Below are positions 3,040-9,801 of a stretch of 64,000 nt of DNA, one piece after another. The DNA is from Thermodesulfobacterium hveragerdense DSM 12571 (GTDB lineage Bacteria > Desulfobacterota > Thermodesulfobacteria > Thermodesulfobacteriales > Thermodesulfobacteriaceae). The position numbers were made by a program, and so were the translations under genes. The first letter of the stretch is position 1; each line of letters begins with the position of its first letter. The stretch is taken from contig NZ_AUIT01000002.1 of NCBI RefSeq assembly GCF_000423845.1, positions 1 through 64,000 on the forward strand, in the 5' to 3' direction. The notes beneath the pieces are model-generated. The model worked only from the letters and a program-made list of their open reading frames with translations, ran no database searches and was not told the origin of the DNA.

Positions 3040-5319
3040 ATGTGGGGCAAAAAAGCTTTATTTTTTGTTTTGGCTTTAAAAATGTTTTTTGTTTCTAAGG
3101 GTTTTGCAGAAGGGATTGATAAGGAAAGGTTGGAAAAAGAGGGAACTTTACCTGAGATCATAGTTACTGGTGAAAAAATAATTACTCCTACTAAAGAGAC
3201 AGCAGAAACAGTTTATACAGGGATAGGGATTACCAAAAAAGGGATTGAACTATCTGGAGAAAGGGGTAGTAGCAACGTTTGGTCTATCTTAAATATTTTA
3301 CCAGGGGTATATTTTGAAACTCCTGATCCTGCAGGTATTTCTTCAACTCAGAGAAGTATAACGATAAGAGGTGTTTCTGGTTCCTTGGGAACAATGTCTG
3401 TTGAAGGAGTCCCTGTTTACGGAGGAAACCCTATCGGTCCAAGGGAGTATATTTTTGACTTAGAAAACATGGAGGCAATTGATGTGTATAAAGGGGTTAT
3501 TCCTGTTGACCTTGGAACAGGTGCAGGAACAAGAGGGGGAACGGTTGAGTTAAAACCAAAATGGGCTAAAGATAAATTTGGGTTTGAATTTAAACAAGGT
3601 TTAGGGATGAATGATTATACTAAAACCTTTGTAAGAGTTGATTCAGGTAAATTACCTACCTTAGGGACTAAGTTTTCGCTTTCCTACTCTAATGCAGAGA
3701 CAGATAAGTGGAGAGGAAAAGGAAAACTTGGTCCAAGAGAAAACCTAAACTTTACTTTAGTTCAGGCTTTAGGAGAAAGAATTAACATAAAACTTTGGGC
3801 AAACTATAATGATCTTGACCATCATAAGTATGCTTCTCTTTCCTATCAAGATGCTAAAAAAGATAGATGGTTAGATTATAATGAAAACTTTACGGGCAAT
3901 CCCTCAAGAGATTGGTATTACTATAAATATCAGGAACTTGGATGGACAAATAAAGACTATTATGCCTTTTTAGATATAAGATTGTTAGACAAATTGATGC
4001 TTCAATTAAAACCTTATTACAGAATAGAAGAAAAAGGGGATTGGAGCGGAAGTAGAAGCATATCAGGTCCTATGAGACAAAGTAAACCAGGGGTAACTTG
4101 GAGTGGATGGGAGGTTAAAAGAAAAGGGGTTTTAACTCAACTTGTTTTTGATTTAAAGTTTTTTAGAGGACTTTTAGGCTATCATTATGAAGTCCAAGAA
4201 TGGGAGGACAGACCTTCTAAAAACTATTGGTTAAACCCTGATGGGAGCTTAACTTTTATTGGATGGGGTAGATTTACCAAAAGTATTTCTGATGGCTACT
4301 CTTCAAGTCCTTACCTTAAGTTTGCAGGAAACATAGGTAGACTAAGCTGGCAAGCAGGTCTTCAATATATAAAGAAAAAAGACGGAAAAAATGAAGGGTA
4401 CATTACTCAATACAATGGAACAGTGCCTTACTTACTAAGAGAACCTAAGCTTGATTATGGTGGAAGAAGTTATTCTGCGTGGGTTCCATCTTTTGGGCTT
4501 TCCTATACTTTTAACGATAAGATAGAGGTATATACAAGCTTTGGTAAAACCTTCCAAACCCCTTATATGTATATGCCAATAGTAAATCTTTACTATCGTC
4601 TTTATAATAAGTTTAAAAAGATGGGTATAACTCTGGATGATCTGTTTAATGATTATAAATGTGAAGAAACTTATAACTGGGATTTGGGGCTTAGGGTTAG
4701 AACTGAGAAGTTTGAATTATACCCAACCATTTACTTCTCTAAACATAAAAACTTAAACACACCTTTTACTCCAGGCTGGAAAGACCCAGATAATCCTGAC
4801 CAGCTTTTGATTGATCCTTCTACTGGTTTACCTGTAAGTTTTAATACCTTTATCGGTAAGGCAAAAGGATATGGGTTTGAACTTGCTTCAACGTTTTATA
4901 TTACCGATAAAATTTCCTTATTTTTCAACCCATCTTATGTAAAGATGAAATACGACGGAGACATCATAAGTGCTGGGACCCGTTATCCTGTTGATGGAAA
5001 ACAAGTAACAGGGGTTCCAGAAAAAATGCTCACTACAGGACTCATAGCAAGGTATAAAGGGCTTGAAATAGTTCCCAGATTTAGGTATGTAAGTAGTTAT
5101 TATGGAAATTTAGCACGTACAGAGAGGGTCTCTGGGTATGAAGTGTTTGATTTAATGGTTTCTTATAGTAAAGAAGAAATAAAAAGTTTAAGGCTTAAAA
5201 ACCTTAGATTAGCCGTTGAGCTTAACAACCTGTTTGATAGAAAATATATTTTTGGTACCGGTAGCTATTACCCAGGAACTCCTTTTAACGTCTTTGGGTT
5301 TGTATCTTTTAATTTTTAA
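3040..5319 (+). CDS. TonB-dependent outer-membrane receptor, probably metal or tetrapyrrole uptake
   Basis: A 759-residue outer-membrane protein. A Sec signal peptide covers about residues 1-23 (ending GFAEG). A plug domain follows, beginning with the LPEIIVTGEK motif near residue 37 and including ITIRGVSG. The remainder is a long aromatic-rich beta barrel ending in the classical C-terminal Phe (VSFNF). It would bind a substrate too large for porins and import it with TonB/ExbBD energy. The substrate is inferred from the neighbours (tetrapyrrole-methylase fold, NikK-like and NikL-like proteins, chelatase relic) to be nickel, cobalt or a metallated tetrapyrrole. The start has a GGGGGG ribosome-binding site 11 bases upstream. 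No TonB gene is seen in the window. Confidence 0.85.
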   Translation: MWGKKALFFVLALKMFFVSKGFAEGIDKERLEKEGTLPEIIVTGEKIITPTKETAETVYTGIGITKKGIELSGERGSSNVWSILNILPGVYFETPDPAGISSTQRSITIRGVSGSLGTMSVEGVPVYGGNPIGPREYIFDLENMEAIDVYKGVIPVDLGTGAGTRGGTVELKPKWAKDKFGFEFKQGLGMNDYTKTFVRVDSGKLPTLGTKFSLSYSNAETDKWRGKGKLGPRENLNFTLVQALGERINIKLWANYNDLDHHKYASLSYQDAKKDRWLDYNENFTGNPSRDWYYYKYQELGWTNKDYYAFLDIRLLDKLMLQLKPYYRIEEKGDWSGSRSISGPMRQSKPGVTWSGWEVKRKGVLTQLVFDLKFFRGLLGYHYEVQEWEDRPSKNYWLNPDGSLTFIGWGRFTKSISDGYSSSPYLKFAGNIGRLSWQAGLQYIKKKDGKNEGYITQYNGTVPYLLREPKLDYGGRSYSAWVPSFGLSYTFNDKIEVYTSFGKTFQTPYMYMPIVNLYYRLYNKFKKMGITLDDLFNDYKCEETYNWDLGLRVRTEKFELYPTIYFSKHKNLNTPFTPGWKDPDNPDQLLIDPSTGLPVSFNTFIGKAKGYGFELASTFYITDKISLFFNPSYVKMKYDGDIISAGTRYPVDGKQVTGVPEKMLTTGLIARYKGLEIVPRFRYVSSYYGNLARTERVSGYEVFDLMVSYSKEEIKSLRLKNLRLAVELNNLFDRKYIFGTGSYYPGTPFNVFGFVSFNF

Positions 5320-5344
5320 AAGTTAAAAAAAGGGGGGTTATAAA

Positions 5345-6172
5345 ATGAAAAATCTTAAAAAAATTTTACTATTAAGTCTCTTTTTTATAGGTTTTACTTT
5401 TTCTTTAGCTCAAGCAGAAGGTAGACTTTATCTTGTTAGCACCGGGGTTGGAGACCCTGATAATTTGACCTTAAGGGCTTATGAAGTTATCAAAAAAACT
5501 GATGTTATCTTTTGCAGTAAATGGACTTGTGAAAGGGTAAGAGATTTAATTAAGGGAAAAGAGGTTTATGATGCAGGCTTTGGTATTTTTCACCTTTTCT
5601 ATCGAAAAGATAGAGGGAACCCTAAATCTCAGATAGAAATAAAGTCTTTAAGTTTCGATGAAAAAGAAAAAAGAAAAGAGCTTGAAAAGATAACCAAGAT
5701 CATAAGAGAAGCTGTTAAGCAAGGTAAGGTGGTAGCCGTTCTTGAAGACGGTGATCCTACTATCTACGGTCCCCATATATGGTATGTGGAGGCGTTTAAA
5801 GACTTAAACCCAGAAATCATTCCTGGGGTGAGCTCTTTTAATGCAGCTAATGCGGCTATTAAAAAAAGCATTACTGGGGGTAAAGCCCAAAGTGTAACCC
5901 TTGCTGCAGGATTTTCTGACCTCGAGGCCCTTGCTAAAACAGGCACAAACCTTGTTATTTTTACCATGAGAATAAAAGACATAACCGAGGTTTTAAAGAA
6001 GATAGAAAAATATTACTCCCCAAAAACTCAAGTAATCTTTGTACTGCATGCAGGTTATAAAAACAAAGAAAGGGTTATAGCAGGAACCTTTGAAGATATT
6101 TATGAAAAAATTAGAGAGGTTCAGCTACCCTTTGAATATTTGGTTTATATAGGAGATTTTGGTGGAAATTAA
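5345..6172 (+). CDS. Exported tetrapyrrole-methylase-fold protein
   Basis: The 275-residue product begins with a clear Sec signal peptide (KNLKK, hydrophobic core, LAQA then Glu25). It is followed by a full SAM-dependent tetrapyrrole methylase domain: GVGDPDNLTLRA at 34-45, the GDPTIYG motif at 136-142, and PGVSS at 160-164. Cytosolic relatives methylate precorrins or uroporphyrinogen. Export is odd because SAM is not expected in the periplasm, so the domain may bind or handle a tetrapyrrole rather than methylate it. It lies 25 bases after the receptor gene with a GGGGGG ribosome-binding site, and its stop overlaps the permease start. Fold confidence is high; function is unknown. Confidence 0.8.
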   Translation: MKNLKKILLLSLFFIGFTFSLAQAEGRLYLVSTGVGDPDNLTLRAYEVIKKTDVIFCSKWTCERVRDLIKGKEVYDAGFGIFHLFYRKDRGNPKSQIEIKSLSFDEKEKRKELEKITKIIREAVKQGKVVAVLEDGDPTIYGPHIWYVEAFKDLNPEIIPGVSSFNAANAAIKKSITGGKAQSVTLAAGFSDLEALAKTGTNLVIFTMRIKDITEVLKKIEKYYSPKTQVIFVLHAGYKNKERVIAGTFEDIYEKIREVQLPFEYLVYIGDFGGN

Positions 6173-7514
6173 GGAACTTACTGGAATAAAGAATTTTTCT
6201 GTTTCTGAGAAAAAAACTGTTTACCTAAGAAGAGAGGTAGGGCTTATTCCTGCTATCATGCTTGTTGTTGGAAACACCGTAGGAACAGGTATTTTTACCA
6301 CCTCTGGATTCATTATAAAGGAACTTAGAGATCCAGGGGCTCTTCTTTTTCTGTGGCTCTTAGGAGGTTTGATTGCTTTTTTTGGTGCTCTTAGTTATGC
6401 TGAGCTTGGTAGACTTTTTCCTCGGGCAGGGGGAGAATATGTTTTTTTAAAAGAAACTTTTGGTGAGGTTTTTGGATTTCTTGCTGGCTGGATTTCACTT
6501 ATTGTTGGTTTTTCTGCTCCTATTGCAGCAACAGCTATTGCCTTTTCAAAATATTTTTTAGAACTTTTTTCAATACAAACCTCAGAATTAATCTCTAAAC
6601 TTTTAGCTATTTCAGTGATTTTACTTCTTTCTTTAGTTCACGTACAACGAATTAAAATAGCTGCTAATTTCCAAACAGGAATAACTTTCTTTAAAGTTCT
6701 TTTTCTTTTTGCCTTTATTTTCTTTGGATTCATATACACTAAAGAAGGAATGACTAACTTTGATATAGGAAGTTTAATTCCAAAAAAAGAGGCACTATTA
6801 AGCTTAAGTTTTCCTGTTTCTCTTATTTATGTTATGTATGCCTACAGTGGATGGAATGCTGCAACCTATATAGGAGATGAGATCAAAGATCCGCAAAGAA
6901 ACATCCCTTTAGCCCTTTTGTTAGGAATTTTAGTGATTGCAACTTTGTATCTGGGGACAAACTACCTTTATGTTAAAGTTCTTTCTTTTGAAGAAATGGC
7001 TGGCATTGTGGAGTTAGGGGCTAAGACAGCCGAAAAAGTTTTTGGAAACGAACTTTCTTTTATTTTTACTGCTGGAATTACCTTAGGTCTTCTTTCTGTT
7101 TTAAGTGCTATGATACTTGCCGGACCAAGGGTATATTATGCTATGGCAAGGGATGGGGTATTCTTTAAAGTATTTTCAAAAATTCATACAGAAAAAAAGA
7201 CTCCTATTTTTTCTATCCTTCTTCAGGCACTAATTGCTATTTTTATGGTAATAACCTCAACCTTTGAAGCTCTTCTTCTTTATATAGGATTTACTTTATC
7301 TCTATGTGCAAGTTTAACAGTTTTAGGTCTTATGAAACTTAAGAAAAAATTTATTTTCTCAGCTTTTGCTTTTATTTTGGTTAACCTCTGGATGATTATT
7401 TTTACTATCGTTACTAAGCCTCTAACCCTTTTAGCAGGAATGTTAACTATTTTAGCGGGCTTAACACTGTATTATTTCAAATTTAATCAAAAATTAAAAA
7501 CAAAAGGGGGTTAA
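6162..7514 (+). CDS. APC-superfamily amino acid/amine permease
   Basis: About 450 residues with roughly twelve transmembrane segments. It carries the APC signatures GNTVGTGIFTTSG near residue 39 and a conserved helix-6 region, YAYSGWNAATYIGDEIKDPQRNIP. The closest general type is the LAT/PotE-like amino acid transporter. The GTG at 6162 has AGGAG six bases upstream (6151-6155), so it is preferred over the TTG at 6159. It overlaps the end of the exported methylase gene by 11 bases, which implies translational coupling. An amino acid permease inside a metal/TonB operon is unexpected. It may import a chelating amino acid such as histidine or a metallophore fragment, but that is speculation. Confidence 0.82.
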   Translation: MEIKELTGIKNFSVSEKKTVYLRREVGLIPAIMLVVGNTVGTGIFTTSGFIIKELRDPGALLFLWLLGGLIAFFGALSYAELGRLFPRAGGEYVFLKETFGEVFGFLAGWISLIVGFSAPIAATAIAFSKYFLELFSIQTSELISKLLAISVILLLSLVHVQRIKIAANFQTGITFFKVLFLFAFIFFGFIYTKEGMTNFDIGSLIPKKEALLSLSFPVSLIYVMYAYSGWNAATYIGDEIKDPQRNIPLALLLGILVIATLYLGTNYLYVKVLSFEEMAGIVELGAKTAEKVFGNELSFIFTAGITLGLLSVLSAMILAGPRVYYAMARDGVFFKVFSKIHTEKKTPIFSILLQALIAIFMVITSTFEALLLYIGFTLSLCASLTVLGLMKLKKKFIFSAFAFILVNLWMIIFTIVTKPLTLLAGMLTILAGLTLYYFKFNQKLKTKGG

Positions 7515-7516
7515 GT

Positions 7517-8233
7517 ATGAAAAAATTTATTCTAAGTTTGGTTTTTATGTTTTCAACTTTTTTGTTCTGGGTAACGATCGGTTTTTGTCATATGCTTTGG
7601 ATCGAGAAAACTGATGGAAAGTTTACAGTGTTTTGGGGACATAAGGGCAAGGTTGAACCTTATAACCCTGCAGCAATAAAAGAAATTAAAGCTTTTGATA
7701 AAAAAGAAAAATCTGTAACACTTAAAAAAGAGATAATAAACAATCAACTCCTTCTTTCAGGTAAGGAAAAGCCTTCTTTAATCCTTGTTTCTATGGATGG
7801 AGTTTATTTGGTTACTACACCAGAAGGAAGGAAAAGAATGGATAAAATTGAAGCTCAAAAACAAGGGTTACAAGTGGTAGAAAGTTTTTATGTGATTCAA
7901 GCAACCAAAGCTATTTTTACAGATTCTTCTCTTCTAAAAAAAACTTTGGGTTTAAGGCTTGAACCAGTTTTTGTAAAAGCTCCTTATGAAGTAAAAGACG
8001 AAGTTGTAATAAAGGTCTTATATGAAGGGAAACCAGTTGAAAGTGTAATCATTTTTAATCCTTTTCATAAAGAAGTAGCTAAAACTGATATAAATGGGAT
8101 AGCAAGAATAAAGGTTGAAGACCTTAAGATGAAAGAAAACTACTATGCCTTGGTGTGTTTTTATAAGTTAAAAATCTCAGACCCTAAAGCTGACTATCTA
8201 TGGCTTATTACCTCTCTTACCTGGCAAAAATAA
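7517..8233 (+). CDS. DUF4198 periplasmic protein, NikK-like
   Basis: A 238-residue exported protein with a signal peptide (residues 1-24, ending IGFC) and the DUF4198 architecture found in NikK-type accessory proteins of nickel/cobalt uptake operons. The predicted mature protein starts HMLW, and an N-terminal His is typical of metal-handling proteins of this group. A C-terminal beta-sandwich region (about 150-230, with KAPYEVKDEVVIKVLYEGKP) resembles an Ig-like domain. It lies two bases after the permease stop, with the ribosome-binding site AGGGGG in the overlap. No ECF core components (NikM/CbiM, NikQ, NikO) are present in this window. Family call is good; the metal is inferred. Confidence 0.7.
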   Translation: MKKFILSLVFMFSTFLFWVTIGFCHMLWIEKTDGKFTVFWGHKGKVEPYNPAAIKEIKAFDKKEKSVTLKKEIINNQLLLSGKEKPSLILVSMDGVYLVTTPEGRKRMDKIEAQKQGLQVVESFYVIQATKAIFTDSSLLKKTLGLRLEPVFVKAPYEVKDEVVIKVLYEGKPVESVIIFNPFHKEVAKTDINGIARIKVEDLKMKENYYALVCFYKLKISDPKADYLWLITSLTWQK

Positions 8234-8258: not shown

Positions 8259-8714
8259 TTGAAAATAATTTTATTAGTAATGTGTTTTTTACTGTGTATA
8301 AATCTTGGAGAAAAGGTGTTTGCTCACGAGGTTAATTATCAGGTAAGAGAAAGGGAGGGTATCTGTGTAAGCTTCTTTTTTGCAGACAAATCTCCGATGA
8401 ATTATGCGAAGATAGAAGTTTATGCACCAGATGAAAGAATACCTTTTCAGAAGGCAAGGACTGATAAAAACGGGATTTTTTGTTTTATGCCAGATAAAAA
8501 AGGTATTTGGAGAGTTGTGGTTAAAGGAGAAACAGAACACGGACTTCATGGGGCAGAAGTTGAAATGAAGATAAAAGATAGGTTAGAGGTAGAGGGTTTT
8601 AAGAAACCATTGATTGCTTCCCATACAAGATTTTTTATAGCTTTTGGAATTGTAGGCTGGATAATTGGGATAACGGGTGTTTATTTGTTTTTAAAATCAC
8701 GAAAGTCTGTTTAA
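8259..8714 (+). CDS. NikL-like membrane-anchored periplasmic protein
   Basis: A 151-residue product with a signal peptide ending KVFA before HEVNYQV. A transthyretin/carboxypeptidase-regulatory-like beta domain follows (SPMNYAKIEVYAPDE, then ARTDKNGIFCFMPDKKG and WRVVVKGETEHG). One transmembrane helix lies near residues 123-144, with a short basic tail. This is the layout of NikL, an accessory component of nickel ECF transporters. The TTG start at 8259 is supported by AGGAGG at 8245-8250. Like its neighbour, its predicted mature end starts with His. It is the last intact gene of the operon. Confidence 0.7.
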   Translation: MKIILLVMCFLLCINLGEKVFAHEVNYQVREREGICVSFFFADKSPMNYAKIEVYAPDERIPFQKARTDKNGIFCFMPDKKGIWRVVVKGETEHGLHGAEVEMKIKDRLEVEGFKKPLIASHTRFFIAFGIVGWIIGITGVYLFLKSRKSV

Positions 8715-8716
8715 AG

Positions 8717-8794
8717 ATGCTTATTTCATTTTTTGAATACTATGGGGCTCTTCTTTTTCTGGTTTGCTTCTTTTTGTGGCGATTAAGTCTATAG
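8717..8794 (+). pseudogene. Truncated first codons of a lost downstream gene
   Basis: An ATG two bases after the NikL-like stop opens a frame starting MLISFFEYYGAL that runs directly into the second direct repeat at 8752 and ends at 8794. The first 12 codons look like a hydrophobic N-terminus, for example of an ExbB/MotA-like or other membrane protein. The rest is out-of-frame repeat sequence. I read it as the stump of the next operon gene, cut by the recombination that placed the repeat here. Too short for a family call. Confidence 0.4.
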
Positions 8795-8999
8795 TTTCTT
8801 TAGACTGGAATTTGTTGAAAGCCATGATGGCTATGGTGAGTTTCTTTGCTCTCTATCGAAAGGTTAACCTTGTTTACGTAGTTCTTATTTCTGTGTTGCT
8901 TTCAGCTTTTCTTTTTTAATCTCATTTTAGTAACATTTTCTTTTTAGTTATTTCACATTAATATCGCTAAAATTTAAAAATTTTTTAAATTTTTTACAA
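8752..8999 (+). repeat. Direct repeat copy 2, with orphan chrA C-terminal fragment
   Basis: Near-identical to 2656-2904. The segment 8752-8919 is the last 56 codons, stop included, of the chromate transporter gene without any start, so it is a pseudogene fragment. The remaining 80 bp is the AT-rich DNA that follows the intact gene. The match ends about 20 bp before the left end of the IS3-like relic. Confidence 0.95.
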
Positions 9000-9022
9000 A
9001 TTTGATCATAGTATTTTTTAAT

Positions 9023-9801
9023 TGTGTCTACCAATTTGGGGTAAGAAGCCTTCCTCCTAAAATTAGATATCGCTTCTTTAAATCCAGGTAAACTTGGAGT
9101 GCTCCTCATTTTTGAGACAGTTATAATTTAGAATGGTGTGAAAAATTTTAAAAAAGGGGGTAAAAAGCATGCGTAAAACCAAATTCTCAACCGAGCAAAT
9201 CATTAAAATCCTCGCCGAGGCAGACCTCCCAAACAATTCAGTGGCTTCCGTAGCAAGAAAATACGGCATCAATCCTAACAACATCTAAGGCTTCAGACAA
9301 AAATTTAAAGGCCTCCATCAATTCAACATTCCCATAGCAGTCCTATGTAAACGATTCGACATCCCAAGAAGCTCTTTTTACCGTCAATCTGAAGATCGAG
9401 GAAGAAGTGATACCGCCGGGGCAACCTTTTCACATGGGCATATAGAGAGTTTTCATCGGAGCATGAGGGAGGAATTGCTTGATAGGTAGAAATTTGTGAG
9501 CCTTGAAGAAGTTCGGGAAATAGTGAAAAGGTGGGTGGAGAACTACAACAAGCAGCTCCTTACACTTAAAAACGTAGCATCTACATACAAAGCAAAATAT
9601 TCCTCTTCAACCTCTCGATTTTTTCATTTATCTATCTCTTGAATCTTTACCTCTATAAGTCGACTAATGCTTGCAAGGAGAGTAATAGAGGAAGATTTTT
9701 CGGTTTAAAATCTCCTTTAAGTTTTTCATAGGCTTCCCCTCCTTCTTAATTTTGAGTTTAAGTTTATCAGGGGAAGCCCTTACCCCTAAAATTTAGACAC
9801 A
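9023..9801 (+). mobile_element. Degenerate IS3-family element with recognisable terminal inverted repeats
   Basis: The left end starts TGTGTCTACCAATTTGGGG at 9023. The right end, read as reverse complement from 9801, is TGTGTCTAAATTTTAGGGG followed by TAAGGGC, and the left end continues TAAGAAGCC. These form imperfect inverted repeats of about 30 bp. The element is only about 780 bp, while IS3 members are about 1.2-1.5 kb, so an internal block including most of the catalytic core has been lost. A related single end is found alone at 32807. Confidence 0.75.
9169..9561 (+). pseudogene. IS3-family transposase remnant (OrfA plus pieces of OrfB)
   Basis: An ATG with a GGGGG ribosome-binding site opens MRKTKFSTEQIIKILAEA and SVASVARKYGI, the helix-turn-helix start of an IS3 OrfA, which stops at 9286-9288. 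Beyond it are OrfB pieces: LCKRFDIPRSSFYR (9332-9381 region), then a jump to HIESFHRSMREELLDR, an in-frame stop, and KFVSLEEVREIVKRWVENYN, which is the end of the integrase domain. The DDE core between them is absent. It is clearly inactive. Confidence 0.8.

Follow-up and report, generated by a model that had tools for sequence, protein, structure and literature searches.

The described proteins closest to the one reported here are the tetrapyrrole methylases CbiF and CobM, which share its SAM motifs, provide its best family match and are among its best fold matches. It differs from them in sequence (21-23% identity in the structure alignment), in its predicted export, in a family loop of its own at about residues 72-110 that is absent from CobM and CbiF, in having a receptor as neighbour, and in belonging to a genome without a B12 pathway. 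CysG and the SUMT enzymes (CobA) have the fold in common with it, and the CobA-like domain of the same genome lies in a separate gene (G000:C9). CbiK-P, the periplasmic cobaltochelatase of Desulfovibrio vulgaris, is likewise an exported B12/siroheme-pathway enzyme of a sulfate reducer, but it has a chelatase fold instead of a methylase fold. The HmuS/CobN-like haem dechelatases of the Bacteroidota work in a similar manner, as a tetrapyrrole-pathway homologue employed in TonB-linked haem use, yet their fold and family are different. Finally, the NikL and DUF4198 accessories of nickel/cobalt ECF importers have counterparts in the operon described below, and one DUF4198 domain is fused to a relative of the protein, whereas the gene cassette itself contains no CbiM-type importer.

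The window analysed here is a stretch of 64,000 nucleotides from Thermodesulfobacterium hveragerdense DSM 12571, and the cassette described below, with its flanking repeats, lies on the plus strand. The gene at 5345-6172 encodes a tetrapyrrole-methylase-fold protein of 275 residues with a signal peptide, hereafter TPM. The first-pass annotation had recognised the core motifs of SAM-dependent methylases in it, and this is confirmed: PF00590 (TP_methylase) covers residues 27-252 at practically full length (profile positions 1-211 of 212, 142 bits with a cut-off of 27.8, 3.5e-41), and the motifs STGVGDPDNLT (GxGxGDxxxLT), EDGDPTIYG, PGVSSFNAANAA, LVIFTM and LHAG are all seen. An AlphaFold2 model built with 72 sequences (mean pLDDT 89) has the tetrapyrrole methylase fold, with Foldseek matches to 1pjs, 1cbf, 3nei and 4e16 (E about 1e-15, TM by query 0.64-0.67), the nearest solved structures being CysG (1pjs, the top match), CbiF and CobM. 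At the level of families the assignment is less specific. The best match among NCBIfam-type models is TIGR01465 (CbiF/CobM) with 91.3 bits, which does not reach the equivalog cut-off of 259.65; neither are the cut-offs reached for SUMT (74.8 vs 198), CysG (77.2 vs 400) or the RsmI model TIGR00096 (31 bits vs 167.9). The genome holds only three PF00590 domains, namely those of a 505-residue frame (the one on G000:C9), which I take as a CobA-type siroheme enzyme, of a 280-residue frame, which I take as RsmI, and of TPM, so that TPM is no part of a B12 pathway. In the databases and literature searched, neither a curated model nor a publication turned up that describes an exported TPM family, and the literature likewise gave no experiment on a family member and no account of tetrapyrrole methylases in the periplasm or of SAM methyltransferases that are exported. 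The earlier view of the system as a candidate for an undescribed one holds insofar as no curated family was found for TPM.

Most of the best conserved columns of the family lie in the SAM motifs. Four columns are invariant, and three of these (G34, P138 and G161) lie in SAM motifs. In the glycine-rich loop G34-T42 (GVGDPDNLT, 5444-5470), T42 is nearly invariant among 72 relatives; in G136-D137-P138 (5750-5758), G136 is kept in 71 of 72 and residue 137 is Asp in 61 and Asn in 11; in P160-G161-V162-S163 (5822-5833), residue 163 is either Ser or Gly; and A236-G237 (6050-6055) is again nearly invariant. The SAH-binding residues of Rhodobacter capsulatus CobM (Pro10, Asp83, Ser112, Leu165 and Ala193; PMC6478909), when placed by motif, correspond to TPM residues 35, 137, 163, about 207 and 236. 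The window protein keeps at least three of the five (Asp137, Ser163 and Ala236) and has Val35 for Pro10, a position at which most relatives have Pro, while the relatives linked to PCPU-type receptors (see below) have Asn at 137 and Gly at 163. As these positions are mostly kept, either SAM or an analogue would be used outside the cytoplasm, or the pocket has been retained for another ligand. The earlier interpretation therefore stands in part only: export and the linkage to a receptor and to nickel-type proteins are supported, whereas a repurposed protein that makes no use of SAM is not shown.

A Sec signal peptide had also been claimed, and the sequence bears this out. Residues 1-24 (5345-5416) read MKNLKKILLLSLFFIGFTFSLAQA, followed by EG, with a Lys-rich n-region, a hydrophobic core with a 12-residue Kyte-Doolittle mean of 2.56, and a c-region with predicted cleavage after A-Q-A. 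A ribosome-binding site, GGGGGG, is located 8-13 bases 5' of the ATG (5332-5337), so that the peptide is expected to be translated, and no in-frame ATG, GTG or TTG occurs between the signal peptide and the first strand (the domain starts at residue 27). Every orthologue in the genus has a signal peptide, the letters of which change faster than those of the domain. Homologues that lack the peptide, together with an internal start, would have argued against export according to the first-pass annotation. Homologues without the peptide do exist in six loci, and they form one nested group beside a FecBCD-type importer; the N-termini of these proteins are not hydrophobic even in the longest possible frame, and hence they do not show any sign of an internal start in the window protein. 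On these sequence grounds, I consider the export of TPM well supported.

The gene directly upstream (3040-5319) encodes a TonB-dependent receptor of 759 residues (PF00593 93.8 bits, PF07715 38.4 bits), which is siderophore-receptor-like, with TIGR01783 as its best NCBIfam match, below cut-off. It ends 25 bases 5' of the TPM gene, on the same strand and in the same operon, in line with the association noted previously. The end of the TPM gene overlaps an APC-superfamily amino-acid permease (6159-7514, PF13520 178.6 bits) of the same operon, unmentioned in the earlier work; it is SLC7-like, its closest solved chains being xCT, y+LAT, b0,+AT, LAT and BasC-type proteins, and may move an amino-acid-like ligand. 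The nickel-type accessories that had been reported are a DUF4198 protein with a signal peptide (7517-8233, PF10670 42.6 bits, cut-off 34) and a NikL-like protein of the periplasm that has a single hydrophobic helix, at its C-terminus (8259-8714; NF058648 54 bits, below the curated cut-off of 100). The operon has no CbiM-type component, and the only CbiM of the genome is about 57 kb away, at C2:65280. Just beyond the window, a second DUF4198 gene is followed by this CbiM of a nickel/cobalt ECF system (G000:C2:64545-65861).

The cassette from the receptor to the NikL-like gene is bracketed by a direct repeat of 251 bp (2656-2906 and 8752-9002, 99% identity), which takes in the 3' end of a chromate-transporter gene plus sequence downstream of this gene. 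Such a repeat fits gain or loss of the cassette as a block; it could permit loss by recombination, or it could mark an insertion. Remnants of a transposase-like gene are present at 9170-9600, right after the cassette. Within the genus, the receptor, TPM and the permease have orthologues in an identical set of 7 among 14 genomes and are jointly absent from the other seven, and a close permease orthologue is found in TPM-bearing genomes only. With three TonB receptors in a genome of 1.73 Mb (G000), a chance adjacency of TPM and receptor is unlikely. An alignment of the sequences 5' of the genus operons was too rich in AT and too diverged to reveal a conserved operator.

In order to discern how far the family extends, I searched 395 genomes of the phylum with a profile of ten members, and then inspected 51 further loci. 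Full-length matches above about 130 bits separate from the canonical cytosolic methylases, which score 90-110 bits, mostly over the C-terminal part; one match from a fragmentary genome scores between the two groups. The tree puts the canonical cytosolic methylases in among exported TPMs, and monophyly of the latter is not supported. With dozens of relatives, TPM represents a large exported family, widespread in the phylum and apparently undescribed. Besides proteins with a single TPM domain, the family comprises tandems of two TPM domains (L043, L076, L077, L080-L082), a chain that joins DUF4198 to TPM (L086), and fusions of TPM to an Oxidored_molyb (SUOX-like) region that is apparently duplicated (L111-L114, L116-L118, L120-L126). 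A CxxCH motif is found in 11 of the SUOX-like/TPM genes against 10 of 963 other nearby open reading frames; as a covalent-haem motif, it suggests a c-type haem on a methylase-fold protein. In these fusions (range L112-L126) the motif lies at residues ~136-170. Two proteins (L080 and L082) have likely lipoboxes, and these, the DUF4198 fusion and the SUOX-like/CxxCH fusions are independent signs of export. An APC permease is present in 28 of 60 TPM loci and CbiM in three loci of the survey; nickel/cobalt accessories occur in a minority, and other loci have TupA-like, FmdE or BtuF/FecB-like proteins. A candidate relative from the Bacteroidia (L006) was rejected as an RsmI-like protein. The matches in plasmid records, including one in Manganitrophus, were set aside too, being canonical B12/siroheme methylases only.

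The linkage to receptors extends well beyond the genus. In the survey of the 395 genomes, of the kind that the first-pass annotation had proposed, a receptor was found within 3 kb of 52 out of 66 TPM genes, in all 52 cases on the same strand, and from these sequence comparisons I regard the linkage as well supported. The receptors belong to several classes: siderophore-like in the window, haemin-like (L042, L097) and selenocysteine-containing types. In ten loci an in-frame TGA, read as selenocysteine, interrupts the receptor adjacent to TPM, in nine of them within RLPCP-U-DYYWW (L044, L083, L087-L091, L095, L096) and in one within HCMP-U-PRD (L086). NCBIfam models already cover these receptors as PCPU- and FCYXU-type selenoproteins (NF049944-NF049947). 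Selenocysteine-containing TonB receptors are treated in PMC12013277 (deep-Sep) and in the review PMC13188914, and the portions available of these two sources describe no link to an exported methylase-fold protein. In the present survey, 11 of 12 PCPU receptors have an adjoining TPM (10/10 above cut-off and one partial), and so have five of six FCYXU-like receptors; the TPM beside a selenocysteine receptor is cytosolic in two loci and otherwise exported. In the PCPU receptors, the Cys and the selenocysteine lie between motifs that I take to resemble the FRAP and NPNL boxes known from haem receptors. For none of the selenocysteine TonB receptors did I find a described ligand. The window receptor differs from this type, which stands beside many relatives of TPM: it has no internal stop, and the four models are absent from its matches.

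A small hairpin whose loop contains GGU follows the receptor TGA, though its stability does not clearly exceed that of shuffled sequence; a tRNA-Sec above threshold is found in 40 of 42 genomes, lesser matches there being probably other tRNAs. One locus has a tRNA-Sec-like gene of 56 bits (L089:3805-3892) upstream of the selenocysteine receptor on the opposite strand, with a 75-bit one elsewhere in the genome. Another (L151, G245) has a TGA-containing receptor that is related to the PCPU type, below cut-off, and adjoins ABC-transporter genes, without a TPM neighbour.

The location of TPM follows the mode of transport. In all six loci with a TPM that lacks a signal peptide (L095, L096, L105, L107, L108, L110), genes for a FecCD permease, an ABC ATPase and/or a Peripla_BP_2 protein are present, together with a soluble methyltransferase gene. 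In L088, with Peripla_BP_2 and methyltransferase genes and no permease seen, the signal peptide is kept. Not counting L116, L119, L124 and the seemingly exported L091_4465, whose starts are unclear, 54 TPMs are exported without an importer gene and one with it, whereas six are not exported and have an importer and one (L093) is not exported and has none. FmdE behaves similarly, being exported in five loci with an exported TPM (L084, L094, L106, L115, L123) and cytosolic in four loci with a cytosolic one, with L112 as an exception. The exported FmdE protein of L094 also has a CxxCH motif. The Fisher p-values (8e-7 and 0.05) overstate independence, because the six cytosolic TPMs are one nested group in the tree, and the correlation with importers therefore represents one or two events. 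The simplest reading of these gene arrangements is that TPM acts on the ligand of the receptor in whichever compartment this ligand arrives.

As for the ligand, the DUF4198, NikL-like and CbiM genes point to nickel or cobalt, while the TupA-like and FmdE genes of other loci point to other metals or to a shared chelator; the metal may thus vary between loci, or may not be what they have in common. Given the CbiF-like fold, a metallo-tetrapyrrole would be the natural candidate. Neither the window nor any of 22 loci has a cobalamin, NiCo or Moco riboswitch that reaches the Rfam threshold, and hence there is no direct pointer to a corrinoid or to one particular metal. A link to haem export through CcsA-like neighbours was considered and set aside, since the only support for it is a weak PF01578 match that stays under its cut-off.

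From the fold, signal peptide, operon, co-inheritance and receptor linkage, all established at the level of sequence, I propose that TPM belongs to a cassette for TonB-dependent uptake and handles its ligand in the periplasm, where it binds or modifies the metal chelate or metallo-tetrapyrrole of the receptor, and I put the probability of this reading at roughly 0.5. It is favoured by the shared presence in half of the genus, by the linkage across receptor classes including nearly all PCPU and FCYXU-like receptors, by the extracytoplasmic fusions, by a location that follows transport, by the nickel/cobalt genes and by the retained SAM residues. Against it weigh the small share of loci with nickel/cobalt accessories, the single nested group behind the importer correlation, the lack of riboswitches at threshold, and the tree, in which cytosolic methylases mix with exported TPMs. 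The ligand, the metal, the order of steps and the catalysis I infer as follows. The receptor would carry a metal chelate through the outer membrane, the likeliest being a tetrapyrrole that contains nickel or cobalt, or something similar; TPM would bind this chelate in the cleft that in CbiF and other relatives is occupied by SAM and a cobalt corrinoid, and would modify or open it, which would free the metal or let it be handed on; the DUF4198 and NikL-like proteins would then bring the metal to an importer of the ECF class (CbiM-type), and the SLC7-like permease could exchange an amino-acid-like ligand or remnant.

Alternatively, TPM may be a non-catalytic binder or chaperone, its fold kept in order to hold a metallo-tetrapyrrole or metallophore, like the solute-binding protein of a system without an ABC importer. 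Export where an ABC importer is absent, the tandem copies, the extracytoplasmic fusions and the family loop would all fit, but the conservation is centred on the SAM motifs, beyond the need of a pure carrier, and I regard this option as improbable, if the strongest of the alternatives. Slightly less probable still is a methyltransferase that is active in the periplasm, where it would draw on SAM or another donor, perhaps delivered by the APC permease, and methylate the imported tetrapyrrole in order to make it less stable or to tag it for uptake. The mostly kept CobM positions at 35, 137, 163 and 236, the concentration of the best conserved columns in the SAM motifs and the permease in nearly half of the loci are in its favour. 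However, this permease is nearest to amino-acid exchangers, the PCPU-linked group has Asn at 137 and Gly at 163, and the literature searched yielded no exported SAM methyltransferase. To my knowledge, there is no known periplasmic SAM pool.

Salvage of corrinoids, in which the receptor imports B12-like compounds and the CbiF-related TPM holds or remodels them, seems rather unlikely. CbiF/CobM is the closest family, and the window genome, being without a B12 pathway, may need corrinoids; however, two cassette-bearing members of the genus have seven methylase matches, as a B12 pathway gives, one member with seven has no cassette, a cobalamin riboswitch is lacking at threshold, and siderophore or haemin models give the receptors higher scores than BtuB does. 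That the signal peptide is unused, and TPM an ordinary cytosolic methylase beside a receptor by accident, would suit the cytoplasmic location of SAM and the six relatives without a peptide, but is very hard to reconcile with peptides in all genus orthologues and some 50 relatives, two likely lipoboxes, the SUOX-like/CxxCH and DUF4198 fusions and the lack of an internal start.

I rate the system, in which TPM would serve as the ligand-handling component, as TonB-dependent uptake with an unexpected periplasmic component. More far-reaching, and in my view doubtful, is the idea that sulfate reducers and their relatives carry out SAM-dependent tetrapyrrole chemistry in the periplasm, with an exported CbiF-like methylase modifying metallo-tetrapyrroles imported by TonB receptors, many of them selenoproteins, and thereby stripping them of nickel, cobalt or other metals; if true, periplasmic tetrapyrrole methylation would need SAM or another methyl donor to be delivered outside the cytoplasm. 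SAM enzymes are taken as cytoplasmic; with a broad family that is exported, keeps its SAM site and is inherited together with TonB receptors, the presence of SAM in the periplasm, or else a new role for the pocket, can be tested directly. The exported TPM is at the same time a possible partner of the selenocysteine TonB receptors, and its cassette a lead to a route, so far unrecognised, by which anaerobes acquire metals or tetrapyrroles.
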